Virus record (IMG/VR): IMGVR_UViG_3300021085_000245
Span: 1-22,260 of that record
Source of the DNA: a virus
Strand: one strand, 5' to 3'
Length of the DNA: 22,260 bases
Part shown: positions 1,709 through 20,654 of the stretch, piece by piece
Numbering within the stretch: the stretch's first letter is position 1
How the letters are laid out: every line of letters starts with the position of its first letter
Notes under the pieces: model-generated
What the model saw: only the letters and a program-made list of their open reading frames with translations
Databases searched by the model: none
Told to the model about the DNA's origin: nothing
Program-made: the position numbers and the translations under genes

Positions 1709-4531
1709 TTATGCAATCTTTCTTCTTAGACTATTTAACGTGGCTTCAGCAAGATCTTCCATTGCTGGTTCCTTTGCTGGAGCTTTGTTATTTTTGTCTA
1801 AATATTTTGCAATCTTGGCTAATAATATAACATGCTCTTTCGGCAAGCTATACATTTCGCCTGAAATTTGACTTAGTAAGTTAAATACTTCGTCATTTTT
1901 ACTGTTCATTGCTAGAAAAGATAAGTGTGATACTAACTTAGCCATTGCACCATTACCACCTGAGTATTTAATTGGATCTTCATTATCAGGATGTTCTGGA
2001 TCATTTGGATCAATGTTAAGTTTGAAATCTTCCTTGTTTTTAATCATATCGTATAAACGATTCATGTTACTTTTAGTTAGATCTGTCATACTGTCTCTCT
2101 CCTTTATAATACGGGCTACTGTTTCTAAGACTGAATCCATATTTGCAGTCTCGAATGTATTATACATGAACTTGTCAGTTAAGTCAACCGATTCTTTATC
2201 ATTATCTTCTACAATCGCAGTAGTAGGTGCTTGATAGGCGTTATAACCTCTTGAAGTCTGTAGACTCTTAACTGTATTCTTAAATTCTTTTAATTTTTGT
2301 TTAATTGTTTCAACAATGTTTTCATTGCCTTCATTTGTTAATTTGTTTGTACGCACATGTCTCAAAAACTGTGTACATTGTGCTACTTCTGTACATAAAT
2401 TAACTATTGATTCACCAATTGCATCATATGGCGTTCCGCCATTGCTTACATGGTTGGCCATAGCTTTAGCGCCTTGTAAATATTTATGTGGGAATCTAAA
2501 TCTTTCTCCTGCACTGTTTTCAATAAACAATGCTTTAATGTTACGTGATCTGCTACCACGCACTTCTTCATTAACACCTTTTGTATGCTTAATAATAAGT
2601 TTAGTGTTTTCTGGTAATTGAATATAACTTGTTTTCATACTACCTGTTGCAGGTGAATAACTTTCCATTTGTGGTTTAACTGTTCCAGTTTGTGGCTTTC
2701 TAAGGTCAGTAGTGAATTTAACTCCTTTTTTACCAAACTTAACTCCGCCGTGTCTAAGAGTATCAACACCTTTTTTAACTGCATTTTTAATGCCATCCCA
2801 ACTTTCGTAATATTCTTCTTCTGATTCGCCGGCTGCCATTTCTTTACAATCTGAACATCTACCATGTCCATCATTGTAGTCCATTAATTGAGCGCCACAG
2901 CAATTACTTACTACGCCATCTTCCATTTCATCACCTGGTGAATATGATTCAGTTTCTGCTTCAAGTAATTCGCCTGATGCTAAAACATCAATTGCATGTT
3001 TGATATCTGTGTTTTCCATATCCACATGTGGTATTGCTTTTAATATAGCTTGCACTTGTGGCATACTCATAAATTCTTCATCGTCTGTATCTATTTCATC
3101 TGTAAATTCGTAATATGAACTATCAGTCATTCTATAGTTATCTGCTTGAATTTCTTTAGCATGATCAACTACATGTGACATAAATGCCTCTACTGAATTT
3201 CCACCTGCTTCGCCTAAATTATCTGGGCGTAACTTTGGCTTAGTTTTTAGAAATTTCTTACCAAGATTTGCTGGACGTAACTTTGGCTTAGTTTTAATTC
3301 CTGGGCCTGTGCCCATTTGATTTTCTGGATGTGCCATTTGGTCTCTGTGTCCTGCATTTGGGTTAACTTCAAACGATTCAACAAATACTTCTACCATGTC
3401 ATCGCCATTACGCAATGCACCTTTTTTAACTTTTACGTTTTCTTTGCCGTATTTTGCTATTGCTTCTTCTGGAGACATACTAGTTTGTTTCCAACGCTTT
3501 TCTGCTTCAGTAACTTTTTTAGATTCAGTAGTATTCAAAGCGTCTAACTCAGCATCATTTCTTTCTACTTCACCTGAATTATATGCTGACTTTGGATTAG
3601 GTTTTGCGTTTGGTGGTAGAACGTCATTGTCTACTCCATAAATAGAAGTCTTTTTGCCTTTTAACTTGGCAATAGCTTCTCTGTATAAACCTCTATAATC
3701 ATCGTTTACTGCTGTATCAAAATAAGGTTCATGTTCGCCAATATCAACGGCTTCAATCATATCGTTAACATCACGTAATTCTGATGAAATCATGTTTGGA
3801 TCCATTTCTTCATTCTCAAGATACCACTTGTGTCTTAATAATGATTTTTTCATTATTTGAAATACTGGTGAACTTGCATCTTCTTTAATACCAGATAGTT
3901 CTCTTAATCTGCGAACATCTTCATTCTTTGATTCCAATTGAGCAATCATGTCATCAAATGTCATATCGTCTTTTTTGTTCCTCAATGCGTCAACTACTAT
4001 TGCTAATGTACGTTTTGCTAATTCATCTCTGTCTCTAGTGGCTGTTGTCATTTCAATCCAAGTCCACTCATAAATCATTTGCATCACTTCGTCAACACTT
4101 TTGTCCCACATCTGCGTGTGTTCTTTCCAGAAGTCTGTGATCTCGTAATAGCCTGTAACTGCACTTGGTTGCATGTCTTTCATTGCCTTTTCAGTACGGT
4201 CGTCTTCTTTTACTACATCGTGAGCGAAGTCTTTTGGTTCAATATTCTTATCAAATTTTCTAATGCTATATTCTGCCATGGCGTTGTGTCCTGCTTGTTT
4301 AATACTATCTAATACATCTTTGTGTTTATCAAAGTTGAAACTAGCTCCTGCTTGTACAACTAGCTCAACTTCGTCCTCTTCTTCTCTAATAGTGACAAGA
4401 AAATCATTATCATATGCGTAAAATCTCGCTGATAACTCAGGATCTAGTGTTTTATTTCCCATTGGATCAAACAGTTTTAATTTAACGTTTGCACCCTTTA
4501 GGATATTAAAAATCTCATTTGATAGTTGCAT
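1709..4531 (-). CDS. Large acidic protein with zinc ribbon and prohead-protease-like sites
   Basis: This 940-aa protein has no function I can name. Residues 1-110 form a compact segment (starting MQLSNEIFNILKGANVKLKL) that I believe recurs in marine T4-like phages. R207-E217 is RRLRELSGIKE followed by D218, a module shared with the 281-aa protein at 11687-12532. Residues 415-442 hold a tandem repeat TKPKLRP(A/D)NLG, the second copy ending LGE/A. Residues 542-564 look like a small zinc ribbon (SNCCGA, then CSDCKE). SEEEYYES (570-577) recurs in the 281-aa protein. (L/I)-x-E sites followed by a small or acidic residue (217, 441, 524) resemble T4 prohead protease cleavage signals. I infer a virion-internal polyprotein-like protein; a non-structural role is possible. 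A late-type box lies 18 bases upstream and AGGAATACTATA precedes the ATG. Confidence 0.75.
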   Translation of the reverse strand: MQLSNEIFNILKGANVKLKLFDPMGNKTLDPELSARFYAYDNDFLVTIREEEDEVELVVQAGASFNFDKHKDVLDSIKQAGHNAMAEYSIRKFDKNIEPKDFAHDVVKEDDRTEKAMKDMQPSAVTGYYEITDFWKEHTQMWDKSVDEVMQMIYEWTWIEMTTATRDRDELAKRTLAIVVDALRNKKDDMTFDDMIAQLESKNEDVRRLRELSGIKEDASSPVFQIMKKSLLRHKWYLENEEMDPNMISSELRDVNDMIEAVDIGEHEPYFDTAVNDDYRGLYREAIAKLKGKKTSIYGVDNDVLPPNAKPNPKSAYNSGEVERNDAELDALNTTESKKVTEAEKRWKQTSMSPEEAIAKYGKENVKVKKGALRNGDDMVEVFVESFEVNPNAGHRDQMAHPENQMGTGPGIKTKPKLRPANLGKKFLKTKPKLRPDNLGEAGGNSVEAFMSHVVDHAKEIQADNYRMTDSSYYEFTDEIDTDDEEFMSMPQVQAILKAIPHVDMENTDIKHAIDVLASGELLEAETESYSPGDEMEDGVVSNCCGAQLMDYNDGHGRCSDCKEMAAGESEEEYYESWDGIKNAVKKGVDTLRHGGVKFGKKGVKFTTDLRKPQTGTVKPQMESYSPATGSMKTSYIQLPENTKLIIKHTKGVNEEVRGSRSRNIKALFIENSAGERFRFPHKYLQGAKAMANHVSNGGTPYDAIGESIVNLCTEVAQCTQFLRHVRTNKLTNEGNENIVETIKQKLKEFKNTVKSLQTSRGYNAYQAPTTAIVEDNDKESVDLTDKFMYNTFETANMDSVLETVARIIKERDSMTDLTKSNMNRLYDMIKNKEDFKLNIDPNDPEHPDNEDPIKYSGGNGAMAKLVSHLSFLAMNSKNDEVFNLLSQISGEMYSLPKEHVILLAKIAKYLDKNNKAPAKEPAMEDLAEATLNSLRRKIA
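3228..3295 (-). repeat. 48-base tandem repeat inside the 940-aa gene
   Basis: CGTAACTTTGGCTTAGTTTT (plus strand) occurs at 3228-3247 and again at 3276-3295, an exact 20-base match with a 48-base period. It encodes the repeated TKPKLRP(A/D)NLG. Being in frame, it looks like a recent unit duplication in a linker. Confidence 0.85.
3880..3913 (-). repeat. Dispersed DNA repeat encoding RRLRELSGIKE, copy 1
   Basis: Bases 3891-3913 are identical over 23 bases to 11889-11911, and bases 3880-3902 are identical over 23 bases to 12481-12503. All three encode versions of R-x-x-(R/K)-E-L-S-G-I-x-E. Identity at third codon positions points to recent copying or gene conversion, not just selection on the peptide. 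Confidence 0.85.
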
Positions 4532-4572: not shown

Positions 4573-5448
4573 TTACTTAAATATTACAGGTTTATAATTA
4601 TCTACTGCTTCTGAATAATCAAATGCAGTTCTCCATAACTGTCTATCTTTGTTTTTAACTGCTGATCTTCTATGACTTGTAGTTAATTGATCCATGAATA
4701 ATAAGTCGCCTTCGCGGAATACATGATGAAACATATATCTTGATTGTGTAATAACATCATATAATTTATCTTTAAATTCAGCAAAATTTTCTAATTCTGT
4801 GCCATCTTTGTACCATGCATTAAACAAATATATAAACATAGGATAAAAATATTCTCTGCCACTTACAGGGTGTTTAGCAATTAACGGTCGTCTGTCTATC
4901 TCTTCTTGGTAATGCTCTTGTCCTAATCTAAACTGATCTTCTTTACCTGCAGTTTGATATGCTTTAGAATAAACTCCATCATCTCTCCAAATTGATCGTG
5001 CAACTCCACGTGTATTATCCAAGTGAATATCTATGTTACGATAATAGTCTTTTTCTTCCTCTGGTAAGTCTTCAAACGCTTTGCACTGGTCAACTATTGA
5101 TAATACTGTATCAACACATTCTGTTTCACAATATAATCCTACACAAATTTCAGTAAAATTATATCTACCAGTACCATTTGCATGCCACTCTAGTTCAGTA
5201 GGACCAAACATACCAATAGCTTTACCGTTTTCATCAATTGCTCCTGATACAATACTAATTTGTGGACTATCTTTTGGATTCATAAAGTAATCTAGTTCTT
5301 CTACTTTACCCATTTTAGAACATGCATATGCTAATTCTTGTCTAGTTAAATTTTGATCATGTAATACTGCTGATCCATCGTTTACAATTTTATTTACTAA
5401 ATGAGCAAACTCTTCATCTGTGTATTCTAATATACTTTTATGTTTCAT
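4573..5448 (-). CDS. TauD-like 2OG/Fe(II) dioxygenase family protein with altered metal motif
   Basis: The C-terminal half is characteristic of the TauD/TfdA family, which hydroxylates or cleaves small molecules using 2OG, O2 and Fe(II): AKHPVSGREYFYP (191-203), then GDLLFMDQ (247-254), then TTSHRR (256-261, metal ligand H259) and R273 in LWRTAF for 2OG binding. At 291 aa it has the usual length. The first metal motif reads EWH89-A90-N91-G; the family has His-x-Asp/Glu, so the acidic iron ligand appears replaced by Asn. The codon is AAT on the minus strand. The protein may bind iron differently, do other chemistry, or be inactive. ATGA overlap with the upstream oxygenase-like gene and a GAGG ribosome site support the start and co-transcription. 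Its substrate cannot be told from sequence. Confidence 0.85.
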   Translation of the reverse strand: MKHKSILEYTDEEFAHLVNKIVNDGSAVLHDQNLTRQELAYACSKMGKVEELDYFMNPKDSPQISIVSGAIDENGKAIGMFGPTELEWHANGTGRYNFTEICVGLYCETECVDTVLSIVDQCKAFEDLPEEEKDYYRNIDIHLDNTRGVARSIWRDDGVYSKAYQTAGKEDQFRLGQEHYQEEIDRRPLIAKHPVSGREYFYPMFIYLFNAWYKDGTELENFAEFKDKLYDVITQSRYMFHHVFREGDLLFMDQLTTSHRRSAVKNKDRQLWRTAFDYSEAVDNYKPVIFK

Positions 5449-6185
5449 AGTTTTTCCTCAATCATATCTTTAAATGTATGTATATCTACCTCTTTTGGTA
5501 AATTTATCCACCTAGTTACCCAAGCCACTCTTGGTGCTTCCTGAACTGTAACTCTATGCATTGTGTTTGTATCTATTATTAATGGCCTATCTATTACAAA
5601 TTGAGCAATTAATCTTTCTTGTAAAAATTCTTCATAGCCTTCGTGTGTTCTGTTTTTAAATTCGTGATAGTAAAATTCGTTATGACAATTAACTTCTGGC
5701 ATTTGTACTTCATCTTCATTTGTTTGAAAATATTCAATTGTGCTTTTACCATGTACTGGTATTACTATATTAAAGTAATGTGGATGCTCTTGATCAAAAT
5801 CAAGATCTGAATGAGCATATAAATCATCTTCAGTACTTGTACTTAAATTAAATCCAGTTGAACGCTTTTGTATGTGTGGGTGAAATTCTCTGTGTGGAGC
5901 TAGTATTGGTTCAAAGTGTTCAAGATATTCAGTGTCGCCACCTTTTTTATGTTCTAGAGCAAAACTATGCCATTTTGTTTTACCAAATGAATTAAACTTT
6001 CCATCACAAAACTTGTATAATTCTTTAAGTAAATCTGTGTGCGGTTCTACATCAACATACACAGCTAAATCTTTTATACTATTTCTTGTAAATTCTTTCC
6101 ATATAGCTTCTTCTTTTATGCTATCTTTTTCAATGTCGTCTAATCCCAATCCTGCTCTACTGGTTTTTATTTTATTATCTATCAT
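5445..6185 (-). CDS. 2OG/Fe(II) oxygenase-like protein, paralogue 1
   Basis: This protein (246 aa from the chosen start) is a paralogue of the one at 8110-8808. They share HPH-x3-RSTGFN, then HSD (here) or HTD, then EFYYHEF or YYYYHEF, then MHRV...EAPR...VTRW. With this start H125-x-D127, H210 and R219 would be the Fe(II) triad and 2OG-binding Arg of a jelly-roll oxygenase. The family and substrate are unknown to me. An ATG four codons upstream (6197) also exists, but the ATG at 6185 has GGAG 6 bases upstream, whereas for the longer form that sequence lies inside the gene. It overlaps the PLP enzyme gene by 11 bases and the TauD-like gene by 4, so all three are probably translated together. 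It could instead be a non-catalytic cupin. Confidence 0.75.
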   Translation of the reverse strand: MIDNKIKTSRAGLGLDDIEKDSIKEEAIWKEFTRNSIKDLAVYVDVEPHTDLLKELYKFCDGKFNSFGKTKWHSFALEHKKGGDTEYLEHFEPILAPHREFHPHIQKRSTGFNLSTSTEDDLYAHSDLDFDQEHPHYFNIVIPVHGKSTIEYFQTNEDEVQMPEVNCHNEFYYHEFKNRTHEGYEEFLQERLIAQFVIDRPLIIDTNTMHRVTVQEAPRVAWVTRWINLPKEVDIHTFKDMIEEKL

Positions 6186-7092
6186 TTTCTTCTCCATTAC
6201 TATTTATTAAACTGGTTATACATATTCTAGCATCGTCATTCCAACGCATGCGTCTTCGTCTTCTATAAAACGAGTCTCTGGTTGTTGCTAAGAAAAAACA
6301 ATCCGATGGTTTAAAATTATATTCATTACAAATTTTTATTTGTTGTTCTCTGTGTTTTTTCCACATCTCATCCACTGCAAAATTCTTTATTATTAATTCT
6401 ATTGTTTTTACTCCACTGTAATTCCAATTTTCAAACTCTTTTAATAGTTGTAATGTTGGATGAGGTTCTTTAGTATATACTAATCCTAGACGTTGTCCTA
6501 CTAATCCAAAGCCTTTACTAAAACTAAAAAATACTTGCTCGGTATTTATTGGAACATCTATTTTTTGTATGTCAGTGGAACTAACATATGTACAGTCTAA
6601 TATAACAGGTGCTTGTATATTTCCTAAATTAAAATAATTTCCATCTGCGGCACTTGGTATACTAATGTAAAGAGGTTTGCTAGAATCAATATTTCCTGGT
6701 AACGCTGAACGCCCTGTTTCTTCGTTCATATACTGTCCTGGTACATCACAAGTAACAGATCCTTTAGAACCTATCATATCTCTATATTCATATTCACCAT
6801 AACATAATTTCTGCCATGGTCTTTTATCTGTCATTTCCCAATGATGTATGGCATCTGTTGCACCATTAACAAAATAACAATGCTTAAAATCTTTTAGATC
6901 TATAATTTCTTTAACCCATTCTCTATGAGCAGACTCAACTGCATCTAAATCACGTGTTGCTTCTCCGCTACCTCTTTTGTAATATGTATCTGATGTGCGT
7001 TGGCTTTTTAGTATGTTCATAACATCTTTGTGACAGGGCACATCTACCCATGCATTTTTTCTTAACTCTTTTTTTACTGAGTCTGATTGCAT
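6175..7092 (-). CDS. PLP-dependent fold-type-I enzyme (aminotransferase-like)
   Basis: Key motifs of the aspartate-aminotransferase fold are present: NGATDAIHHW (phosphate-binding turn), VILDCTYVSS (Asp contacting the PLP ring nitrogen, D166 from this start), then FFSFSKGFGLVGQRLG with K193 as the Schiff-base lysine, and a late Arg in DDARICITS as candidate carboxylate-binding residue. The protein is about 305 aa, shorter than typical aminotransferases (about 350-430), so the small domain is reduced. Residues just before the end contain five arginines in a row, unusual in this fold. The start is the ATG at 7092, with AGGA about 8 bases upstream and lying after the stop of the preceding gene; an ATG at 7125 would overlap that gene and lacks a site. 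Reaction unknown: transamination, decarboxylation or aldol chemistry are possible. Confidence 0.8.
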   Translation of the reverse strand: MQSDSVKKELRKNAWVDVPCHKDVMNILKSQRTSDTYYKRGSGEATRDLDAVESAHREWVKEIIDLKDFKHCYFVNGATDAIHHWEMTDKRPWQKLCYGEYEYRDMIGSKGSVTCDVPGQYMNEETGRSALPGNIDSSKPLYISIPSAADGNYFNLGNIQAPVILDCTYVSSTDIQKIDVPINTEQVFFSFSKGFGLVGQRLGLVYTKEPHPTLQLLKEFENWNYSGVKTIELIIKNFAVDEMWKKHREQQIKICNEYNFKPSDCFFLATTRDSFYRRRRRMRWNDDARICITSLINSNGEENDR

Positions 7093-7096
7093 TATT

Positions 7097-7564
7097 CTAT
7101 TTCCTAAAATATGTTTTTTCATCAAATGATTTATTTAAACCAAACACAACTAAATCACCTACTCCTTGTATATCATGCATAAATTCTGTATGATATAAAC
7201 ACATAGCATTTTTATTATTAAGAATACGAGATTCTAGTACTTCTTTGGTTTCTTTATCATGCATAGTAACGGTTAATTCTCCTCGAGGACAAAAGAACAC
7301 AACTGCATTTTCAATAGATCCAGTATCTACATGAGGGCCTAAATCATCAACAAATCCCTCATAGTAATCCCATACACCCATATATTCTATAGGACCAACA
7401 TATTCTTCTATTGCATTTCTTAGATCAAGTGTTTCTTTAGAGAATGTTTCTCTCTCATAAATTGCCCACCATTTTTCATTATTTTCTTTATTTGCATCAA
7501 GGAATGGTACTAGATTATATTGATCTACGTCCATGTCCCATGTACGACACCAGTTATATGTCAT
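7097..7564 (-). CDS. Small cupin/2OG-oxygenase-like protein, family B copy 1
   Basis: The protein of 155 aa carries GPH78-V-D80-TG and later FMH130-DIQGVGDLVVFGL, the His-x-Asp...His spacing of double-stranded beta-helix iron enzymes. Its C-terminal half aligns by eye with the 189-aa neighbour upstream: (P)H-x-D, then a strand with L-x-(V/L)-x-(M/L)-H, then H-(D/S)-x-(Q/E)-G-x-GDL-(V/I)-VF. No clear 2OG-binding Arg is obvious. GAGGAG about 8 bases upstream supports the start, and the gene overlaps the previous one by 11 bases. Membership of the cassette suggests it acts on the same substrate; it may equally be a non-enzymatic cupin. Confidence 0.65.
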   Translation of the reverse strand: MTYNWCRTWDMDVDQYNLVPFLDANKENNEKWWAIYERETFSKETLDLRNAIEEYVGPIEYMGVWDYYEGFVDDLGPHVDTGSIENAVVFFCPRGELTVTMHDKETKEVLESRILNNKNAMCLYHTEFMHDIQGVGDLVVFGLNKSFDEKTYFRK

Positions 7565-8123
7565 TAAAATACTCCTCTATGTTTAATTGTTTACTAGTTG
7601 TAAACACTATAAGATCACCTTGACCTTCTACTGAATGTGGAAATACAGTATTGTTTAATGCAACTAGTTTAGTATCATCTATATTTATTGTATTTATTAT
7701 AGGTGAATCAGCCTTATCTTCTTCATGTAAATGTAATTTAAAACTGCCAGATATACATGTAACTATAGAACCTGTATGTTCTCCGCCAACATCTATGTGT
7801 ACTGGACAATGTTTAAAGTTTTCATCATACCTCCATATAGCAAGAACAGGCGGGTTGTCTTCTAATTGTGACTTAGTAATATGTGTTACTAGCTCTCTAA
7901 CATTAGATAGTTTATCATTTGCTCCACCATCATCTAATCTTACTCTATTACTTCCAGTAGCCACAGCTTCATTTGATCCTAAAGGTGGAATAACCCACAT
8001 CTTAGAATCTACCACAGACTTATAAGTATTAAAGGGTTCGTAATCATATGTTTTAGTATAACGGTCAGCAACCAACTTTAGGTTTTCTGGCATACTAACT
8101 TTAAATTCTTTAGCCCAGATCAT
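7554..8123 (-). CDS. Small cupin/2OG-oxygenase-like protein, family B copy 2
   Basis: The protein is 189 aa. CPVH109-I-D111 and VFPH163-SVEGQGDLIVF are the candidate metal ligands, matching H78/D80 and H130 of the 155-aa paralogue. The N-terminal 90 residues differ between the two, so only the beta-helix core is shared. The gene overlaps both neighbours by 11-14 bases. Its ribosome site is weak (GAGAG about 10 bases upstream), consistent with translational coupling. A 12-base palindrome GAGAGTACTCTC lies over this start region. Confidence 0.65.
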   Translation of the reverse strand: MIWAKEFKVSMPENLKLVADRYTKTYDYEPFNTYKSVVDSKMWVIPPLGSNEAVATGSNRVRLDDGGANDKLSNVRELVTHITKSQLEDNPPVLAIWRYDENFKHCPVHIDVGGEHTGSIVTCISGSFKLHLHEEDKADSPIINTINIDDTKLVALNNTVFPHSVEGQGDLIVFTTSKQLNIEEYFNDI

Positions 8124-8808
8124 TGAGAGTACTCTCTACTTTGTTTTTAAATGTTTGAAAATCTGATAACTCTGGTGGAATATTAACCCACCTTGTTACA
8201 AACGCACACCTAGGTGCTTCTGTAATAACAACTCTATGCATTATTTCTGTATCAATAAAACATGGCTTATCAATTATAATTTCACCTATTTTTCTATCTG
8301 CAAGGAACTTTTCATATTCAGGAGATCCTTGTCCCATTTTTGCTTGAGCTTTAAATTCGTGATAGTAATAATATCCTTGAGCATTATGTTCTGGAAGAAA
8401 TACTTCATCTGGATTAGTTTCATAATAATCTAATCTACTGCTACCAAACACAGGATAGATAATATTATACCCTTGACTATATTTTTGATTTTGGTCAATA
8501 TCAGTATGTGGGAACACATCTTTCTCTGTAGTATTTGCCGTATTAAATCCTGTTGACCTAAATTGATAATGTGGATGAACTTTTCTATGTTGAGAAAGAA
8601 TTGGATCAAACACTTCTTCATATCCTGTTAATAAACTTTCTCTGCCTTCTTTGGGATATGCATATTCTAGAGAATAACTCTCAAATGGTGTTTTTCCAAA
8701 TACATTAAAATCTTCTCCAGGCAAACTACCTTTTACTTTTTTATATAACTCAAGTAAAAGGTCTATTTGTGGATTAACATCTAAATATTCAGCAATGTTA
8801 GGTATCAT
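8110..8808 (-). CDS. 2OG/Fe(II) oxygenase-like protein, paralogue 2
   Basis: This 232-aa paralogue of the protein at 5445-6185 has H101-T-D103, H191 in IMHRV and R200 in EAPRCAFVTRW as candidate iron ligands and 2OG-binding Arg. The shared segments cover most of the length, starting with (E/N)P(H/Q)-x-DLL-x-ELY near the N-terminus; it lacks about 40 leading residues of the other copy. Divergence is substantial, so duplication is old or the two were acquired separately. The start has AAGG about 9 bases upstream and overlaps the peroxiredoxin gene by 11 bases. Confidence 0.75.
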   Translation of the reverse strand: MIPNIAEYLDVNPQIDLLLELYKKVKGSLPGEDFNVFGKTPFESYSLEYAYPKEGRESLLTGYEEVFDPILSQHRKVHPHYQFRSTGFNTANTTEKDVFPHTDIDQNQKYSQGYNIIYPVFGSSRLDYYETNPDEVFLPEHNAQGYYYYHEFKAQAKMGQGSPEYEKFLADRKIGEIIIDKPCFIDTEIMHRVVITEAPRCAFVTRWVNIPPELSDFQTFKNKVESTLNDLG

Positions 8809-9211
8809 TTAATGCGCCTTCCACAAACGGATCTTTAAATTCTTTAACAAATTCTCCATCTTGTAAAAGTATCGCAAAACGCTTACAACGGATTCCCATT
8901 GTTTCGCCATAGTCTACATCTTTACCAATGCTTTTGCTAAAAACTGCTAACGGGTCTGCAACGGCATCAATGTCTTTATGTCCATGTAAGTTATTCCATG
9001 CATCCATTACGCTAGGATCATTTACTCCAACAAAAACAACTTTACAACCTAATTTTTCTAAATTATTTGCATAACCTGGCAAATGTTTGTTTGTACAACC
9101 AGATGTAAATGCACCCGGTACTCCACACACAATAACTTTACCTTGTGGTATTTCATATGGTTTATAATCATTATCTTTAAATATGTATAAACCTTTATTA
9201 TTAATTTCCAT
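8798..9211 (-). CDS. Peroxiredoxin, Prx5-like
   Basis: The family reduces H2O2 and organic peroxides through a peroxidatic Cys. The active-site loop is VPGAFTSGCTNKHLPGY, with T36 and C39 matching PGAFTPxC of Prx5-type enzymes. GCKVVFVGVNDPSVMDAW (55-72) and the later Arg residues in MGIRCKRFAILLQDG fit the same group. At 137 aa it is slightly shorter than cellular Prx5 (about 160). C56 and C109 are extra cysteines, either of which could serve in recycling. No export signal is visible, so it should act in the host cytoplasm. It is the first gene of the oxygenase cassette, preceded by AAGGAG, 19 bases after gp17. It may protect iron-dependent oxygenases or the infected cell from peroxide. Confidence 0.88.
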   Translation of the reverse strand: MEINNKGLYIFKDNDYKPYEIPQGKVIVCGVPGAFTSGCTNKHLPGYANNLEKLGCKVVFVGVNDPSVMDAWNNLHGHKDIDAVADPLAVFSKSIGKDVDYGETMGIRCKRFAILLQDGEFVKEFKDPFVEGALNDT

Positions 9212-9230: not shown

Positions 9231-10787
9231 TTATATTAAACTAAATGGCATTGGTTCCATACCATCATTGTCATCAAAATCTTCATTTAAATATTCAAAT
9301 GCATCTTCTTCGTATTTTGATACTTCTAAACTCATACGCACAATTAAGTTAAGCGCCATTACAAGATCATCATTTTCTCCATCTTTGGCTGCATAACTAT
9401 TACCACGTGCAATAAATGTTTTTAATTCTCTTAGCAATGGCTTACTTGCTACTTCTAATTTCTCTGTTTCAACCCAGTATTTTAGTTTACTACATGCATT
9501 TATTTTTGCTTTGTGTGTAGTTGTAAAGCCTCGTCTATAGCGTTTGGCATTTCCATGTTGTCTTGTTTCACTTAAAAACGTACCTGGAAAATTTTCTTCT
9601 CCAGTTTCTTCTACAACAACTAATGCTGCCTCACCAAGTGTATTGTTTTCCATACTGTAATATATTTCGCAATCACCTTGTGTTTCACTTTCTATAAACT
9701 GTGCTATTTCTCGCAAAATTTTTATCTGCCCTTGAACTGTTGTTCTATTGTGCATCCATTCTGCTACTTGTTTCATGCCTGGCATTTGATAAACTTGAAT
9801 AGCACTGTTATCTCCACCTGTACCTAAACTAGGATCTAATCCTATCATATATAATTTACCCTTAGCAACTGGTGTGTACCAACGTACTTGTCCTGATATA
9901 GCGTATGGATCCCGAGCTTCCATGTTACTTAGTTTAATACTATCAATAAGTGTTTCGTCAAACGCAATAAATTCACATTTGTGTTCACGCCTAAATCTTT
10001 CTTCACCAATTTTACCTTGTTCAACATCTGCCCATTCTTGATCTCTATCTGGATGTACTTCCCATGTAGCAAGATAATGTGCAAATCCATTAATACCTTC
10101 ATTTGTTTCATTACCAAATTCGTCTTGATTCTTTTGTGCATCTCTCCAAATTTGTGCAAATTGATCATCGTCCATATTTGGTGTTGATGTAATAATACAT
10201 TTACCACCTGTTGCTAATGTAGGTGAAAGTGAAGTCCAAAACTCTTTGGCTATGTTTGGTCTAACAAATGCAAACTCGTCTAAGTATGCTAACGATATAG
10301 ACAAACCACGTCCAGTATTTTCTGTTGTACTCTGTGCTACAATACGAGAACCGTTATCAAATTCCAACGATCCTTTGTTATATGCAGTAACACCAGCTCT
10401 AATAAAATCAGGTAGTGTTTCGTATGCAAAACGTATACGTTGCATAATTTCACTAGCACCTGAATATTTGTGTGCCGCTATAAGAATAGTTTGATCTGGA
10501 TTAAACATTGCATACCATAACAAATAACCTGCCGCACAGGTACTTTTACCTGTTTGTCGTGCAAGCATACTAATACTGTATCTGTTATTATGATATGTAT
10601 CAACTAGCTCTTCTTGGAAATCATATAGTGCAAACTTCATACGACCTTGTGTAGGATGCTGAATATAACAGTGTTCCTTCATAAAGTGTTTAGGATCTTG
10701 TGAACATAGTGCAAGTTCTAACAACTGCTCTTCAGTGTATTTTTCTTTTCTATATGGGGTTTTAGTTAATTTTGTATCTACTGCCAT
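9231..10787 (-). CDS. 17: gp17 large terminase subunit
   Basis: The motor packages DNA into proheads and cuts the concatemer. The ATPase domain has a Walker A LARQTGKST (75-83, K81) of the divergent form used by T4 gp17, Walker B LAYLDEF (D170, E171) and the coupling motif TSTPN (200-204). The nuclease domain follows, with GLDPS (D318), SMENN (E380) and NDDLVMAL (D473/D474) as the acidic triad equivalent to T4 D401, E458 and D542. At 518 aa it is shorter than T4 gp17 (610), mostly at the ends. TATAAATA lies 18 bases upstream. It is unusual that gp16 lies about 3.8 kb away, on the other side of four genes. Confidence 0.96.
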   Translation of the reverse strand: MAVDTKLTKTPYRKEKYTEEQLLELALCSQDPKHFMKEHCYIQHPTQGRMKFALYDFQEELVDTYHNNRYSISMLARQTGKSTCAAGYLLWYAMFNPDQTILIAAHKYSGASEIMQRIRFAYETLPDFIRAGVTAYNKGSLEFDNGSRIVAQSTTENTGRGLSISLAYLDEFAFVRPNIAKEFWTSLSPTLATGGKCIITSTPNMDDDQFAQIWRDAQKNQDEFGNETNEGINGFAHYLATWEVHPDRDQEWADVEQGKIGEERFRREHKCEFIAFDETLIDSIKLSNMEARDPYAISGQVRWYTPVAKGKLYMIGLDPSLGTGGDNSAIQVYQMPGMKQVAEWMHNRTTVQGQIKILREIAQFIESETQGDCEIYYSMENNTLGEAALVVVEETGEENFPGTFLSETRQHGNAKRYRRGFTTTHKAKINACSKLKYWVETEKLEVASKPLLRELKTFIARGNSYAAKDGENDDLVMALNLIVRMSLEVSKYEEDAFEYLNEDFDDNDGMEPMPFSLI

Positions 10788-10832: not shown

Positions 10833-11534
10833 TTATAACTGCCCAAATGCCCATTTACGTTCTTGACACCACCAGCATTCGCCACAATGCTCATCTTTTG
10901 GATCAGTAAGTAATTCTCCATTAACTTCAAATCCTTCGTGCCATTCACAACTTCTTGTATGTGTAAACAAGGTATCTGTTAAATCAAAGTGCTTATACAA
11001 GTGTGCTATCATGCGTTTATCTACATTTATAAAAGGAACCCAAGTTGTAGTATCGTTATTATCATACATTACTGGTCTCCCATGTCCTGGATCACGTGGT
11101 TTATAACTTTCTAAACTAAATGCATCTCTAACTTCAAGTGGTGGGTTTTGTGTAGTTCCATGTAAAATAAATGTTATTCCAGATAAATCTTTTTGTATTT
11201 GTTCTGCTTCAGTAATCTCAGATCTAATCTGATCTGTACTATAAAATGTGTAATGATTTTTAATTAATGTTGTGCCTGTATCCTGGAGTACTTTGTTGAG
11301 TACCCTAGTACTCCAGGTAGCATTATACCAGCCCTTAATAGGATTAGCTGATGTTATAACATATATTTCAGCTTCTGGTATATGTTTTTCACAGTATTGT
11401 ATTAGCATCCATAATAGTATGGCACTATCTGCACCACCCGAGATGTTAATACAAATCTTTTTATGAGGGTCAGGAATTATAAATTCGATAGTTTGACCAA
11501 AACTATCTGTATACGTTTCTAATGGTCTTTCCAT
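10833..11534 (-). CDS. PP-loop ATP pyrophosphatase, QueC-like
   Basis: NISGGADSAIL (30-40) is the PP-loop that activates substrates by adenylation. HGTTQNPP (125-132) and PFINVDKRMIAHLYKHF (167-183) fit the QueC/ExsB architecture. The end has C196 in TRSCEW plus HCGECWWCQERKWAF (C217, C220, C223), the four-Cys zinc site seen in QueC. QueC makes 7-cyano-7-deazaguanine, a precursor used by some phages to modify DNA guanines. The other steps (QueD, QueE, GTP cyclohydrolase, a transglycosylase) are absent from the window. Residues 133-165 seem family-specific, so another adenylation reaction is possible. At 233 aa the length fits QueC. A strong terminator lies upstream; a weak sigma-like or late-like promoter in 11540-11620 is possible but not convincing. 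Confidence 0.78.
   Translation of the reverse strand: MERPLETYTDSFGQTIEFIIPDPHKKICINISGGADSAILLWMLIQYCEKHIPEAEIYVITSANPIKGWYNATWSTRVLNKVLQDTGTTLIKNHYTFYSTDQIRSEITEAEQIQKDLSGITFILHGTTQNPPLEVRDAFSLESYKPRDPGHGRPVMYDNNDTTTWVPFINVDKRMIAHLYKHFDLTDTLFTHTRSCEWHEGFEVNGELLTDPKDEHCGECWWCQERKWAFGQL
11282..11317. repeat. Perfect 11-base inverted repeat inside the PP-loop gene
   Basis: CCTGGAGTACT (11282-11292) is the exact reverse complement of AGTACTCCAGG (11307-11317), with a 14-base loop that contains another GAGTAC. In frame it encodes part of TWSTRVLNKVLQDTG. The mRNA could fold strongly here, in the middle of a gene. Confidence 0.8.
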
Positions 11535-11621: not shown

Positions 11622-11653
11622 AAAAAACGGTGCAGTTAATAAAAACTACACCG
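11622..11653 (-). terminator. Rho-independent terminator after the 281-aa gene
   Basis: On the minus strand a 10-bp stem, CGGTGTAGTT paired with AACTGCACCG with one G-U pair, encloses a 6-base loop TTTATT and is followed by six T residues (11622-11627). It lies 34 bases after the stop of the 281-aa gene and ends the gp16-region transcript before the PP-loop gene. It is the most canonical terminator in the window. Confidence 0.88.
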
Positions 11654-11686
11654 CTTTAGTTTCACCTGGGAGGAAACGTGAACTTT

Positions 11687-12532
11687 TTAAATTTTTAAAA
11701 CTGCTTCTTCTTCTACTGATTCATCTGTGTAAAGAGAATTTTCAATTTCGTCTGATACTTGCCTTGCAAGACCAGAGGCTTTTTGTATGCTTTTTACTGC
11801 ATCGTCCATACTATTTTGCACACCTGCCAATGCATCATGCATATCGCCTTTGTCTGACATATCGTATTGATATGGAGCTTCTGTAATGCCAGATAGTTCT
11901 CTTAATCTGCGTACTTCTGATTCGTAGTATTCTTCAGAATCTGCTTCAAGATCACTTATTTCAAAATCTTCTGGTTTTATTGTTGCTTCTGGCTTTACAT
12001 TGCCATTTTCGTCTTTGTGCCAATCGTTAATTTCCGGCCAATCAACTTCGCCGTCATTCATTGCATTGCCCATATAATCATAATCTGGCGAACCATCTGT
12101 AAATGTCATACCATCAAGTAATCCATGAGGCATATCGTCTACTAAATTCTCTTTAACTGGAGTTAGTGATTCAAACATGTCTGCGTATTCGCCCTGGGCA
12201 AATTTAATATCTTCACCTGGGAATAACATATTATATAATGCAGGATCTTGTGATATTGAAACTTGAAAATAAAATATTAAACTATCTCTTGCTTCAGTAT
12301 CCATATAGTCTGGTTGCATCATGTCTACAACCTCTACATCGCCAGCATCCATCATATCATCTAAATGTTCAATAAATTCTCTTGCTTCGCTAGGATCTTC
12401 TTGAGCGTGTCTCACCATTGCCGCTTTAACGTTTTTAATGTGGGGTAAAAGTTGAGCGTGTGTAACATCACTTCTATCTGCTTCTTTAATACCAGATAGT
12501 TCTTTTATTCTGCTAAGGTCCTTGTAATTCAT
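11687..12532 (-). CDS. Acidic protein with two RELSGI-x-E modules, possible capsid-internal protein
   Basis: This 281-aa protein is not one I recognise by function. It opens MNYKDLSRIKELSGIKE followed by A18; a second copy, RRLRELSGITE followed by A219, starts at 208. Both end in I-x-E/A, the T4 prohead protease signal, and an N-terminal copy is where T4 internal proteins carry their capsid-targeting sequence. Cleavage would give a middle fragment of about 201 residues and a C-terminal piece of about 63. The middle is acidic with Tyr/Asp-rich stretches, and EADSEEYYES precedes the second module. The C-terminal piece may form a helix. The start overlaps the stop of the preceding gene (TAATG). 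The gene is followed by a strong terminator. Confidence 0.75.
   Translation of the reverse strand: MNYKDLSRIKELSGIKEADRSDVTHAQLLPHIKNVKAAMVRHAQEDPSEAREFIEHLDDMMDAGDVEVVDMMQPDYMDTEARDSLIFYFQVSISQDPALYNMLFPGEDIKFAQGEYADMFESLTPVKENLVDDMPHGLLDGMTFTDGSPDYDYMGNAMNDGEVDWPEINDWHKDENGNVKPEATIKPEDFEISDLEADSEEYYESEVRRLRELSGITEAPYQYDMSDKGDMHDALAGVQNSMDDAVKSIQKASGLARQVSDEIENSLYTDESVEEEAVLKI
11889..11911 (-). repeat. Dispersed DNA repeat encoding RRLRELSGI, copy 2
   Basis: These 23 bases are identical to 3891-3913 and encode residues of the second module in the 281-aa protein. The flanks differ. Confidence 0.85.
12481..12503 (-). repeat. Dispersed DNA repeat encoding ELSGIKE, copy 3
   Basis: These 23 bases are identical to 3880-3902 and encode part of the N-terminal module of the 281-aa protein. 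Downstream bases on the plus strand diverge (TTTTATTCTGC against CTCTTAATCTGC). Confidence 0.85.
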
Positions 12533-14067
12533 TACTTTTCCCCTTTAGATTTCTTATATGCTTCTTTAATATCTTCAACTTTATGTTCTTTTAAGCCTAC
12601 TTTCATATCTTCTGCATCTAAGTATCTTTTTAAACTTAGGTTAACGCTTTGTGCAAAATTCTCGTATGGTTCACCATGTGATGTAGCTTCCTCTTCTGCT
12701 GCACCGTCTGGTGTGTTTGCCCATTCGTCTAATTTTGTTTTAATTTTTTCTTCGCTTAAACCTGCGTTCTTAAGTAATGTAATTAGTTGTGTAGTATCCA
12801 TTGTAGGAGCTTCTGAAATTTCTTCAGTTGGAGCACCCATTTTTGCTTGACGAATTAACATCTGTAATCCTTCTTGGTCCATAGTTTTCTCTACTTCATC
12901 ACCTGAATAGTTGTCTTGTGTGTCATCCATAGCACCCATTTCTGCTTTGTGTTCTTTGCCATTTTCGTCTTTAACGATATATGTATATTCGCCTACTTTT
13001 TTATATGACAATGGTCCGCCTTCTGGTGTTACCCAATTAGCATCAGAGGCATCAGGGATATTAAATGGGTCGCCACCAAGTTTTTCTAACTTGTTATATA
13101 GTGCCGTCATTTCACTTCCACGTTCAATAGCCATTGCCTTGTTAGGGTCATCATTTGCTCTGGCTTCATCTGCCATTTTGTCTAATTTTTGAATTCGTGC
13201 TATAACTTTTTCTTTATCGTTAGGAACATTAAGTTCATTAATGTTTTCTTCACCTATGTTGCCTGCAAGTTTTTTTAGTCTTGCTAATTCTGGATCACCT
13301 ACTTCTGGATTACCAATTTTCGTCCAACCTTCTTGGTCTGCCAGTTCGTCATCAAAATCAGCAAAATTTATGCCACTTCCAGGATCAAAATATGTAAATT
13401 CGCTTGCTGGAACCATGTGTGTAAACTTGTGAAGTTCGTCTTTGTCACAATATCCAAAAGCACCTGTGTCAATATTAATACATGCATATTCAGGAACATC
13501 GCCTTCAGTTACTGCTTCTTCAGATTCTACTTTGTATTTTTTGCCGTCAACTTCAAATTCTTTTTTACCGTCTTTTTTAGCTTGTGCTAATGCGCCTGAG
13601 AATTCATTGCCTTCATTTGGAGCTTCTTCTAATGAATCTGGAACACCGTTACCGTCTTTGTCAACCCACCAGTCACCTTTTTCATCATGTGAATCATGTG
13701 AACAATCTGTAGTTGGGCTGTGCATTGTGTCGCCACAGTCTTTACATTTATAGTCTGACGCTTTTAAATATGCTTCATCCATGTCACCATTCATATCATT
13801 GTGTCTACGGAAGTCTGCTACGAAATCTTTAATTGTATCGCCATCTAAATAACGAATTAATTCGTCAAGTACTGGATGATCTGAATCACATCCTAGTTCA
13901 TCGCATAAATCTAAAATTGGATCTGCAAATTCGCCAACTGCTTCTCTTGTTGTAGTTGGTTCTTCAACTACTGGTACGTCTTTTAATTCTCTTTCTGCTG
14001 GAGCCTGGCTGCGAGCATCTGCTGTGCCGTGGCTAGCAAGTTTTAGTATTCTGTCTAAATCACTCAT
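12532..14067 (-). CDS. Large acidic protein with EF-hand-like loop and Cys cluster, unknown function
   Basis: The protein is 511 aa and strongly acidic. The first residues, MSDLDRILKLASHG, resemble the short helical modules of its neighbours, and LARLKKLAGNIGEE (261-274) is a divergent module with I-G-E/E. Other possible (L/I)-x-E/A sites are SLEEA (145-149) and ISEA (417-420). A Cys/His cluster sits at KCKDCGDTMH...CSHDSH (107-127). It is followed by DKDGNGVPDSLE (136-147), whose positions 1, 3, 5, 9 and 12 match a calcium-binding EF-hand loop. The C-terminal 90 residues look helical. It overlaps the 164-aa gene by 8 bases and the 281-aa gene by 1; AAAGGGG precedes the latter start. I infer a processed virion component, with moderate support. 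Confidence 0.7.
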   Translation of the reverse strand: MSDLDRILKLASHGTADARSQAPAERELKDVPVVEEPTTTREAVGEFADPILDLCDELGCDSDHPVLDELIRYLDGDTIKDFVADFRRHNDMNGDMDEAYLKASDYKCKDCGDTMHSPTTDCSHDSHDEKGDWWVDKDGNGVPDSLEEAPNEGNEFSGALAQAKKDGKKEFEVDGKKYKVESEEAVTEGDVPEYACINIDTGAFGYCDKDELHKFTHMVPASEFTYFDPGSGINFADFDDELADQEGWTKIGNPEVGDPELARLKKLAGNIGEENINELNVPNDKEKVIARIQKLDKMADEARANDDPNKAMAIERGSEMTALYNKLEKLGGDPFNIPDASDANWVTPEGGPLSYKKVGEYTYIVKDENGKEHKAEMGAMDDTQDNYSGDEVEKTMDQEGLQMLIRQAKMGAPTEEISEAPTMDTTQLITLLKNAGLSEEKIKTKLDEWANTPDGAAEEEATSHGEPYENFAQSVNLSLKRYLDAEDMKVGLKEHKVEDIKEAYKKSKGEK

Positions 14068-14554
14068 CGCCTTTTTCCTTTTGTTTTTTTACTTTCATTA
14101 ATTCTTTAATGAAACTGGAGTTATACTCGTCACCGTAATGATCTCCTGCATTTACTTTTTCTGCATCTTTATATTCACCATCTGCTAACAGGCTTTCAGC
14201 ACGCTCACCCATAGGAGGGATTAAATCATCTGGTTCGTGTTCGCCTATAACTTTAAGTACACCGTCTGTTAGTCCAAGCATGTTACGAATATCATTTTGT
14301 ACTTGCCAACCGCTGGCAATAATGTTAGTTTCGAATTCATGTGTAAAGACTTCATATCCTTTGTGATTTGGAAAATCACGTGGTGCACTTTGTAAGATTG
14401 TTTTCTTTGCAGCACCGAGTCCTTTAGAGTCGTATTTTCCGAGGTGCTTCTCTATGCGATCACACTGTTCATCAGTTAAATCATGTATTGTTTTAATACT
14501 AAACTTCCACGATTTTTTTGATTCGTTTAAGTATGTTGAAAATGTTTTGTTCAT
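14060..14554 (-). CDS. Small protein with N-terminal capsid-targeting-like peptide
   Basis: The protein is 164 aa and starts MNKTFSTYLNE followed by S12. T4 internal proteins begin with short targeting peptides of this kind, an amphipathic stretch ending in (L/I)-x-E, cut by prohead protease. Here L9-N10-E11/S12 fits that rule. The mature part starts KKSWKFSIKTIHDLTDEQ and ends in a basic tail KELMKVKKQKEKG. No catalytic motif is recognised. The start is set by TAGGAG about 9 bases upstream. A late-type box overlaps the gp16 stop codon upstream, so the 164, 511 and 281-aa genes probably form a late unit ending at the terminator at 11622-11653. Confidence 0.72.
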   Translation of the reverse strand: MNKTFSTYLNESKKSWKFSIKTIHDLTDEQCDRIEKHLGKYDSKGLGAAKKTILQSAPRDFPNHKGYEVFTHEFETNIIASGWQVQNDIRNMLGLTDGVLKVIGEHEPDDLIPPMGERAESLLADGEYKDAEKVNAGDHYGDEYNSSFIKELMKVKKQKEKGDE

Positions 14555-14575: not shown

Positions 14576-15112
14576 CTATTTATCTTTTTCGGGCAAGTTT
14601 TTCATTATTTCGGCAAGCATAGCAGTTCTATCTCCTACTATACGCCCTTCTACTTCTTCTTCATCGCCCAATTCGTGCTTTTTGCCGGCTACATATGCAT
14701 CTATCTTCTCACTGTCTTTTTCAAGTCTAGCTTGACGCATTTGTAACTCAATCATTTTCATTTTCTTATCCATTTTGGCTTGTTTTGCCTGTAGAGCTGC
14801 GGATATCATTTTGCTTGCACTATCAAATATAGGTGCTGCATGTCTATCTTCTACATTCTTACCCAAGTCTATTAAATCTTCAAATGTTTCCATGGCTTTT
14901 TTTGCATATTCGTCCATTTCTCTATCTAACTGTTCTAAACCCTCAACAGTAGGCAATGCAATATTGGCACGTTCTACCATGCTCATTTCGCCTTCTATGT
15001 TTGCTATTTCTGTTTTAAGTTCTTCAGTAGTAGGTTCTTCCTGTATATCATTTTCAGGAAGTAATTGATCTAAATCTGGTAAATTTAATTCTTCTTCTAA
15101 TTTTTTTGTCAT
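14576..15112 (-). CDS. 16: gp16 small terminase subunit
   Basis: The small subunit recognises DNA and regulates gp17. After a variable acidic N-terminus of about 50 residues, the core is LDREMDEYAKKAMETFEDL, then DLGKNVEDRHAAPIFDSA, then AKQAKMDKKMKMIELQMRQA, which matches the coiled-coil oligomerisation region of T4 gp16 (T4 has DELAELATKTYEDLMDLGM and related segments). At 178 aa the length agrees with T4 gp16 (164). The start overlaps the gp4 stop as ATGA. The last codons GAT AAA TAG double as a late promoter box for the next gene. Confidence 0.85.
   Translation of the reverse strand: MTKKLEEELNLPDLDQLLPENDIQEEPTTEELKTEIANIEGEMSMVERANIALPTVEGLEQLDREMDEYAKKAMETFEDLIDLGKNVEDRHAAPIFDSASKMISAALQAKQAKMDKKMKMIELQMRQARLEKDSEKIDAYVAGKKHELGDEEEVEGRIVGDRTAMLAEIMKNLPEKDK
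14577..14584 (-). promoter_or_regulatory. Late-type box GATAAATA embedded in the gp16 stop codon
   Basis: The minus-strand sequence GATAAATA covers the last sense codons and stop of gp16 (GAT AAA TAG). It is 22 bases before the start of the 164-aa gene. Confidence 0.6.
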
Positions 15113-19886: not shown

Positions 19887-20654
19887 TTAGTTGTTATCTG
19901 AGGCTATATTTATCAAAAGAGCATCAAAACTTTCGCAAATGTGCCTTGGAAAGTCGTCGCCCCACAATCCATGTATAATCATATGGATTCTATTTTCTGT
20001 GCCTTTGTTATGTACTGCATGCAATCTACCTATATCAATAGCACGAGCATCTCCTGGTACCCATGGAATGAGTCCCGATTCTTCTAATGCAAATTCTACG
20101 CCCGGAGGATTACTTAACGCTACATTAAATGCCGCCAATGCTCTAGTATCATAATCATTATGAGGTTGTATATATCCGCCTGGTTCCAACAACATATATC
20201 TAACTCTATTATACTTTTTAAACGGCCAAACATTTTTTAACCATTCAACTGTTACTGGACATTGTTCTGCTATGTCTGTCCATCCCACTGGTGGACTTGT
20301 TTCTTCTGTATCATATCCTTCTTCAATATACCAATGAGGTGGTTGTGTTCTTTCTGCTGATTGTCCATGTATTGTAAGACTGCTCCATCCAGGATTCCAC
20401 TCACCTCTGTGTTTTACAAATCTATGAATAAGGCATTCTGCTTCAAGAGCCATTTGCTTATAGGGTACATCAATGTTCATTACTAAACTAGGACAATTAC
20501 TTTCTTTTGCAATCCATTTTGCGTAGTCTTGCATTAGTCCTTTATTGTCTTGCCAACCTTTAAATCTATCTCCAGGATTATTTAGATCCCAATAATGAGA
20601 CTTTTCTTTACATTTAGTTAAAAATTCTTCTAATTCTATTTCGTGTTGTTCCAT
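19887..20654 (-). CDS. Aspartyl/asparaginyl beta-hydroxylase-like 2OG oxygenase
   Basis: The C-terminal half carries MLLEPGGYIQPHNDYDTRAL, with H165 and D167, then GDARAIDIGRLHAVHNKGT (H212 or H215) and R222 in ENRIHMIIHGLW. This is the H-x-D...H...R arrangement of Asp/Asn beta-hydroxylase-type enzymes, which modify proteins or small molecules. The N-terminal 145 residues, rich in Trp and Cys, are not recognised. It is 255 aa, with TAGGAAAG about 10 bases upstream. It overlaps the 487-aa gene by 19 bases and precedes the sheath, so it may be expressed late and act on a virion protein or glycan. Confidence 0.8.
   Translation of the reverse strand: MEQHEIELEEFLTKCKEKSHYWDLNNPGDRFKGWQDNKGLMQDYAKWIAKESNCPSLVMNIDVPYKQMALEAECLIHRFVKHRGEWNPGWSSLTIHGQSAERTQPPHWYIEEGYDTEETSPPVGWTDIAEQCPVTVEWLKNVWPFKKYNRVRYMLLEPGGYIQPHNDYDTRALAAFNVALSNPPGVEFALEESGLIPWVPGDARAIDIGRLHAVHNKGTENRIHMIIHGLWGDDFPRHICESFDALLINIASDNN
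19907..19914 (-). promoter_or_regulatory. Late-type box GATAAATA at the 3' end of the hydroxylase-like gene
   Basis: GATAAATA on the minus strand overlaps codons near the hydroxylase-like gene's end, 111 bases before gp18. It is the better match of the two candidate gp18 boxes but farther away. Confidence 0.45.

Follow-up and report, generated by a model that had tools for sequence, protein, structure and literature searches.

The window analysed here is the complete 22,260-base IMG/VR virus record IMGVR_UViG_3300021085_000245, a genome fragment of an uncultivated jumbo myovirus. Its large terminase shows 100% amino-acid identity to that of a 121 kb marine contig of the same species (G001, also locus L002). 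Its closest cultured relatives are phages of the PA5oct group (large terminase 54% identity), followed by Phosso, Atu_ph07, a Vibrio phage and RaK2-like phages. We investigated three consecutive open reading frames (ORFs) of 164, 511 and 281 amino acids (aa), all on the minus strand, together with a 940-aa protein encoded 7 kb away from them, and found that the 281-, 511- and 940-aa proteins carry a motif that also forms the C-terminal tail of the scaffold protein gp22.

A sequence-only reading of this DNA had located the same three ORFs, and had described them as acidic proteins encoded between the two terminase genes and followed by a terminator. The 281-aa protein (isoelectric point, pI, 4.14) and the 511-aa protein (pI 4.44) are acidic, whereas the pI of the 164-aa protein (5.56) is ordinary for the window. 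The large terminase gene gp17 is certain; the 178-aa gene is a candidate gp16. A terminator after the trio was borne out by a strong hairpin and U-run 3' of the 281-aa gene (-18 kcal/mol, z -6.8, none of 200 shuffles equally stable); a simple terminator scan did not pick up this hairpin. The genes and the hairpin are as follows.

14576..15112, minus strand: 178-aa protein, possible small terminase, not established (best family phrog_16202, function unknown)
14060..14554, minus strand: 164-aa protein with a T4 internal protein (IP)-like N-terminus, head/virion protein family phrog_14802 (family match and orthologs)
12532..14067, minus strand: 511-aa protein with conserved ends and a variable, shuffled middle (comparison with relatives)
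11687..12532, minus strand: 281-aa acidic modular protein (modules recur in other proteins)
11625..11660, minus strand: intrinsic terminator-like hairpin after the 281-aa gene (folding against shuffles)
9231..10787, minus strand: large terminase gp17 (identity certain)
1709..4531, minus strand: 940-aa virion structural protein (phrog_13484) with a conserved core and a module-filled middle (family match)

A gp22-tail motif in three window proteins

The T4 prohead protease gp21 follows the rule L/I-x-E, according to the accessible text of PMC9026906, and the sequence-only reading had applied this rule to N-terminal peptides of the 164- and 281-aa proteins. By itself the tripeptide carries no signal, being common by chance: of 14 window proteins checked, only the tail tube protein is free of [LI]-x-E, and the other 13 have between 2 and 14 copies each. 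Because of this frequency the bare tripeptide proves nothing alone and we rejected it as evidence. The evidence rests instead on longer conserved signals.

The longer signal in the 281-, 511- and 940-aa proteins is a helix-like motif with the consensus [ED]-[ILV]-x-x-L-[KR]-x-L-[AS]-G-[ILV]. The N-terminus of the 281-aa protein reads MNYKDLSRIKELSGIKE/A, where the slash marks the candidate cut (core RIKELSGIKE/A), and RRLRELSGITE/A repeats the motif inside the same protein, which places candidate cuts before residues 18 and 219, as had been proposed. The 940-aa protein holds RLRELSGIKE/D. The copies in the window are listed here.

12482..12517, minus strand: N-terminal motif LSRIKELSGIKE/A, residues 6-17 of the 281-aa protein (sequence and hidden Markov model, HMM)
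11879..11914, minus strand: internal motif VRRLRELSGITE/A, residues 207-218 of the 281-aa protein (sequence and HMM)
3881..3916, minus strand: internal motif VRRLRELSGIKE/D, residues 206-217 of the 940-aa protein (sequence and HMM)
13261..13290, minus strand: internal motif LARLKKLAGN in the 511-aa protein, weak (HMM E 0.002)
14026..14067, minus strand: N-terminus MSDLDRILKLASHG of the 511-aa protein, a degenerate motif; relatives have MSDLDRILKLSGL and MNELDRLKQLAGL (comparison with relatives)

The gp22 protein of G001, encoded between gp21 and gp23, ends EIINLKKLAGIN. The pattern [LIVM]xx[LIVM]xx[LIM][AS]G[LIVM] forms the C-terminal tail of gp22 at all 80 marine loci taken from IMG/VR; these were the best-scoring ones, which favours full-length genes, and 71 tails were obtained through an ORF filter and the remaining 9 read individually. 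In an alignment of gp22 genes, 13 of 13 end in the motif behind a variable linker. Seven of these are marine and six come from cultured jumbo phages: PA5oct (VEELRRLAGIK), Atu_ph07, Phosso, Vibrio 2.275.O, 121Q and Hallingskeid. Among the phages that keep the tail motif, gp22 identity is only 31-43%.

We then counted the motif in other proteins. Among 1,606 distinct ORFs, which are those of the loci fetched by then and include many mutually related rows, the loose form [LIM]xx[LIM][AS]G[LIVM] was present 134 times, against 22.5 in shuffled proteins. It lay within one residue of the C-terminus 25 times (0.1 in shuffles) and started within the first 16 residues 31 times (0.9 in shuffles). In five long marine contigs the strict motif matched 17 times, against 1.64 in shuffles: four matches are gp22 tails, ten lie in proteins of the 511-, 281- or 940-aa type, one belongs to a fourth family, and two form an unrelated-looking pair. 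This pair (L095 4269-6689, 807 aa; L103 10095-11996, 634 aa) ends ...LLLP[KS]IIELSGV, fitting the pattern without the charged residues of the motif, and is probably unrelated. When eight whole phage records were scanned with a 15-position HMM, nine matches emerged, namely four gp22 tails and five candidate cargo proteins; seven of these nine places had supplied rows to the model, and PA5oct 0235 and the Atu_ph07 NUDIX protein had not. The same HMM gave 38 matches over the window and ten marine contigs, four of them in the window. Two others among the 38 are weak and fall in 177-aa ORFs (G006:C1:23265-23297 and G010:C1:42503-42532; L269, L273).

Relatives carry the motif in three kinds of position: the N-terminus, the joints where shuffled modules meet, and the very C-terminus. 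Cargo genes at the locus in distant marine relatives start with MNELDRLKQLAGL-type peptides and end exactly in ...LKKLAGI, and the 976-aa Phosso ortholog of the 940-aa protein ends ...IARLRKLAGI. An Atu_ph07 protein (199073-199519; L251 2074-2520) starts MNIDKLKKLAGIKK and continues into a NUDIX domain (Pfam E 6e-11); it is predicted from its sequence to be a packaged enzyme. A fourth cargo-like family is conserved at its ends and retains a tail resembling that of gp22, or what is left of one; sequence comparison placed its members as follows.

L122 11787-12587: G004 copy, 267 aa
L099 10651-12864: G005 copy, 738 aa, with about 500 residues gained in the middle, including an internal motif copy
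L113 9352-9858: G002 copy, 169 aa

Neither the 281-aa nor the 511-aa protein has a Pfam or PHROG family. Among 50,697 phage records there was no direct relative of the 281-aa protein, and the 511-aa protein gave a single weak match (E 0.4). The structure model of the 281-aa protein has a predicted local distance difference test score (pLDDT) of 51.8. The sequence-only reading missed the main point, which is that the signal of the 281-aa protein resembles the gp22 C-terminal tail and also occurs without a cleavage site.

Internal-protein signal, module exchange and virion evidence

The 164-aa protein carries a different signal. Residues 1-11, MNKTFSTYLNE/S (14522..14554, minus strand), are a predicted capsid targeting peptide with a gp21-type site, as judged from orthologs and T4, and the cut after residue 11 had been named by the sequence-only reading. 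This N-terminus is of the same type (MK[ST][FY]xx[FY][IL]xE/[AS]) as those of T4 IPII and IPIII, which start MKTYQEFIAE/A; T4 IPI lacks this site at the corresponding place. The fetched loci contain 40 ORFs homologous to the 164-aa protein, 38 of them with an N-terminus, and Y[LI]xE/[S/A/N/T] stands about ten residues behind the start in 37 of the 38 (the exception is L046). In an alignment of 32 of the 40, M1 and Y8 never vary, and L9 and E11 reach at least 90% conservation. The major capsid protein gp23 of G001 has YLSE/SANAG where T4 gp23 has FLTE/AEIGG, and an L/I-x-E/[ASTN] pattern was found in the adjacent capsid gene at 65 of the 80 gp22 loci. A gp21-type protease (PF03420) scored above cut-off in 7 of 11 records, including G001, so that the same phage species encodes the enzyme. 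From its N-terminal peptide and the matching gp23 site, the 164-aa protein appears to belong with the T4-type internal proteins. Its structure model is of moderate quality (pLDDT 65.7) with the order beta-alpha-beta-beta-alpha-beta, and the best PDB matches are ribosomal protein S6-like with a template modelling (TM) score of 0.33 on the query, so that only a ferredoxin-like topology is suggested.

The earlier proposal of T4-type targeting peptides stands for the 164-aa protein. In the 281-aa protein the N-terminal peptide is followed by L/I-x-E (IKE/A), but it is the longer gp22-tail-type motif and not of the MKTYQEF type. The N-terminal region of the 511-aa protein is without an L-x-E site. 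The gp22-tail-type motif recurs in the 940-aa protein. A scan of the long contigs for a T4-type capsid targeting sequence (CTS) matched 164-aa genes only, one per contig in five contigs.

We next compared the motif with the positions of candidate cut sites. In the window's clade, all 7 N-terminal copies of the motif have x-E behind them, as do 15 of the 17 internal ones; the clade split was chosen after the sequences were seen, and E makes up 10.9% of residues.

The proteins with the motif are also modular. The conserved core of the 940-aa protein comprises residues 1-109 and 623-940; many relatives consist of this core alone (420-430 aa), and the window copy has about 500 extra residues. The 511-aa protein is conserved at residues ~1-36 and 415-511. 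Residues 5-123 of the 281-aa protein recur in the L066 ortholog of the 940-aa protein (215-333) and residues 124-222 in 511-type proteins of L006 and L007, while residues 203-338 of the 940-aa protein correspond to the N-terminus of an L066 protein of 226 aa. Matches between gene classes started at most 12 residues from a motif in 37 of 73 cases, against a random mean of 10.4 (maximum 19); these 73 matches, drawn from 58 + 51 + 8 proteins of loci L002-L081 and the window, are not independent. Between the window and G001 the 281-aa, 940-aa and gp17 proteins are 99-100% identical, and the 511-aa protein matches its 415-aa counterpart (L002 7009-8253) in parts only, with a different middle. The 511-aa gene has undergone fast turnover and recent module replacement.

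Evidence from virions is available for PA5oct, whose genes next to gp17 (0202, 0203, 0205 and 0206) and gene 0235 are annotated in the public record as 'structural protein, ESI-MS/MS'. PA5oct 0202 is the ortholog of the 164-aa protein and 0203 the positional counterpart of the 511- and 281-aa genes; 0203 starts MFNINDILRLAGV and has LDEISKLAGI inside. In the part of the RaK2 mass spectrometry (MS) list available to us, genes at these positions are not named. We did not count phAPEC6 gp267c (one MS peptide), which possibly lies at the GAP32_207/RaK2_050 position and was matched by order and mass only. The head of phAPEC6, a RaK2-like phage, contains a 91 x 18 nm protein rod of unknown composition, and none of the proteins of this phage resembles known phiKZ inner-body proteins (accessible text of PMC7247149).

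Other features of the window were recorded alongside. A PP-loop/QueC-like 233-aa gene (10833-11534) sits between the terminator hairpin and gp17, directly before gp17, and is kept in L066 and L068. Of the seven genes between gp17 and the 940-aa gene (4573-9211), one encodes a 291-aa TauD-family dioxygenase and another a 137-aa redoxin; several of the rest resemble oxygenases by eye, without a Pfam match. This interval holds one other gene (344 aa) in L066 and none in most relatives compared. An Asp/Arg-hydroxylase-like protein is encoded at 19887-20654. The T4 late promoter TATAAATA is not enriched in the window (2 found, 3.0 expected), and sigma-70-like sites are rarer there than in shuffles.

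A proposed docking peptide common to scaffold and cargo

We consider it reasonably probable that these are head-interior proteins, that the motif is a docking peptide common to scaffold and cargo, and that in the window's clade gp21 cuts it off. The 164-aa protein would enter the prohead by its T4 IP-type N-terminal peptide, which gp21 would remove. The 281-, 511- and 940-aa proteins would each carry one or more short amphipathic docking peptides equivalent to the gp22 C-terminal tail and, because the peptide is that tail, cargo and scaffold would share a receptor, located either in the core of the prohead or on the shell's inner face. The motif may thus bind gp23 or the core. Since x-E/[A/D/E] follows the peptide in the window's clade, gp21 would cut just behind it and free the cargo domain; a polypeptide with the peptide between its domains would yield several fragments. 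The products may stay in the head or be injected. Modules are swapped among the three neighbouring genes between genomes, often with the peptide at the joint. Cargo that carries the scaffold's own docking tail appears to be the simplest single account. The idea of capsid-internal, protease-processed proteins fits well with the 164-aa N-terminus, the PA5oct MS annotation and YLSE/S in gp23, and the sequence-only reading is supported in part, being right on which kind of protein these probably are and on where the candidate cuts lie.

Several observations weigh against this explanation. T4 gp22 lacks the tail motif in the alignment and does not match the tail pattern. The HMM found nothing in the whole records of T4, 121Q, GAP32 and RaK2, although 121Q gp22 fits a looser pattern. 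The 511-type N-terminus of G002 and its relatives, LASHG, fails the strict motif. The window fragment itself contains none of gp21-gp23, which were read from G001. PA5oct gp22 is not MS-flagged, as expected for a removed scaffold. PA5oct 0202 has no L-x-E (MKSFRDYYDASK); therefore cleavage is not universal in the 164-aa family. Beyond the window's clade x-E stands behind just 1 of 20 N-terminal copies and 6 of 16 internal ones. L/I-x-E shows no enrichment upstream of the C-terminal tails of cargo proteins, where 6 of 20 have it and 3.3 are expected, so that the idea that every docking peptide can be separated from its payload at such a site is unsupported for these tails. In gp22, such sites stand upstream of the tail in 13 of 13, yet they are frequent all along the protein. 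Given the clade-limited x-E and the unenriched C-terminal sites, docking seems to be the general feature, and a cut behind the dock seems peculiar to the window's clade.

In an alternative that we regard as rather doubtful, the motif is a gp21 recognition site or a helix for self-association of the core, and not a copied scaffold-to-shell contact. The x-E behind the motif in the window's clade would be expected of such a site, and T4 gp22 is itself a protease substrate (accessible text of PMC9026906), but most copies outside the clade lack x-E and the C-terminal copies cannot be cut behind. It is unlikely that the proteins are ordinary T4-type internal proteins with an N-terminal peptide that ends in L/I-x-E and is cut by gp21, their resemblance to gp22 being incidental. 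This would suit the 164-aa family, which matches IPII and IPIII in type, and GIKE/A and GITE/A obey the protease rule (PMC9026906, accessible text); however, the 281-type motif exceeds what that rule needs and equals the gp22 tail at 80 of 80 loci, and it also occurs at C-termini and joints, where an N-terminal peptide could not act. It is very unlikely that the motif has no binding role and is a flexible linker or recombination joint maintained through DNA homology and module exchange: matches between gene classes do often begin at the motif and the three window copies are 65-80% identical in DNA over 51 bases, but the amino-acid motif persists across phages with such divergent gp22 proteins and stands at the fixed gp22 C-terminus, where nothing is joined. 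We also rejected the possibility that the window proteins are gp22-type scaffolds, as only the tail motif is common to them and gp22 is a separate gene in G001.

The proposed docking peptide has partial parallels in known systems. In lambda (C/Nu3) and herpesviruses (UL26/UL26.5), scaffold and protease have common C-termini, and another protein thus reaches the procapsid through the shell-binding C-terminal part of the scaffold; there the genes are nested, whereas here a motif of 10-12 residues occurs in several unrelated genes and at any position. Encapsulin cargo-loading peptides are likewise short tags that send unrelated cargo into an HK97-fold shell. Encapsulins are not known to use a scaffold or release by a protease, nor is their tag known to be copied from the tail of a scaffold.

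In T4, IPI, IPII, IPIII and Alt have a short N-terminal amphipathic CTS ending in L/I-x-E and cut by gp21, a protease of the same family. The capsid-protein site is of the same type (FLTE/A in T4, YLSE/S here), and the 164-aa N-terminus is practically a T4 peptide. The signal of the 281-, 511- and 940-aa proteins differs: it is another peptide, common to the scaffold tail and found in N-terminal, internal and C-terminal positions, and T4 gp22 has no tail of this kind. An N-terminal signal also puts the large P1 protein DarB into the capsid, but in the accessible text of PMC9024508 P1 appears to do without a separate scaffold and its signal is not a repeated gp22-type tail. The giant phages phiKZ and SPN3US resemble the present case in that a prohead protease cleaves several of their internal head proteins behind a T4-like motif; their propeptides, however, are at least 100 residues long, and the accessible texts of PMC7411985 and PMC10052503 mention no scaffold-tail motif. 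In the accessible parts of the open literature, subscription papers lying outside the search, we found no description of a gp22-tail motif in cargo (PMC9026906, PMC9024508, PMC10052503, PMC7411985, PMC7247149, PMC6950013, PMC6892783, PMC3622015).

A wider scheme is possible, and we put it forward tentatively. In RaK2/PA5oct-like jumbo phages and their marine relatives, a position-independent scaffold-tail tag may load into the head a changing cargo with at least one enzyme among it, the NUDIX protein of Atu_ph07. With the tag joined to a protease site, the polyproteins of the window's clade would dock, be chopped and be released within the capsid, modules would be gained through recombination at the tag, and some of these proteins may build the phAPEC6/121Q rod. 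Little is known of how giant phages select the material that is packaged along with the DNA. If the proposal is true, a scaffold-tail tag would explain how unrelated proteins enter the particle. A tag common to scaffold and cargo would also provide a list, readable from genomes, of candidate packaged proteins across a widespread phage group, which could be tested in cultured phages such as PA5oct, and would supply a short address for directing foreign proteins into very large capsids.

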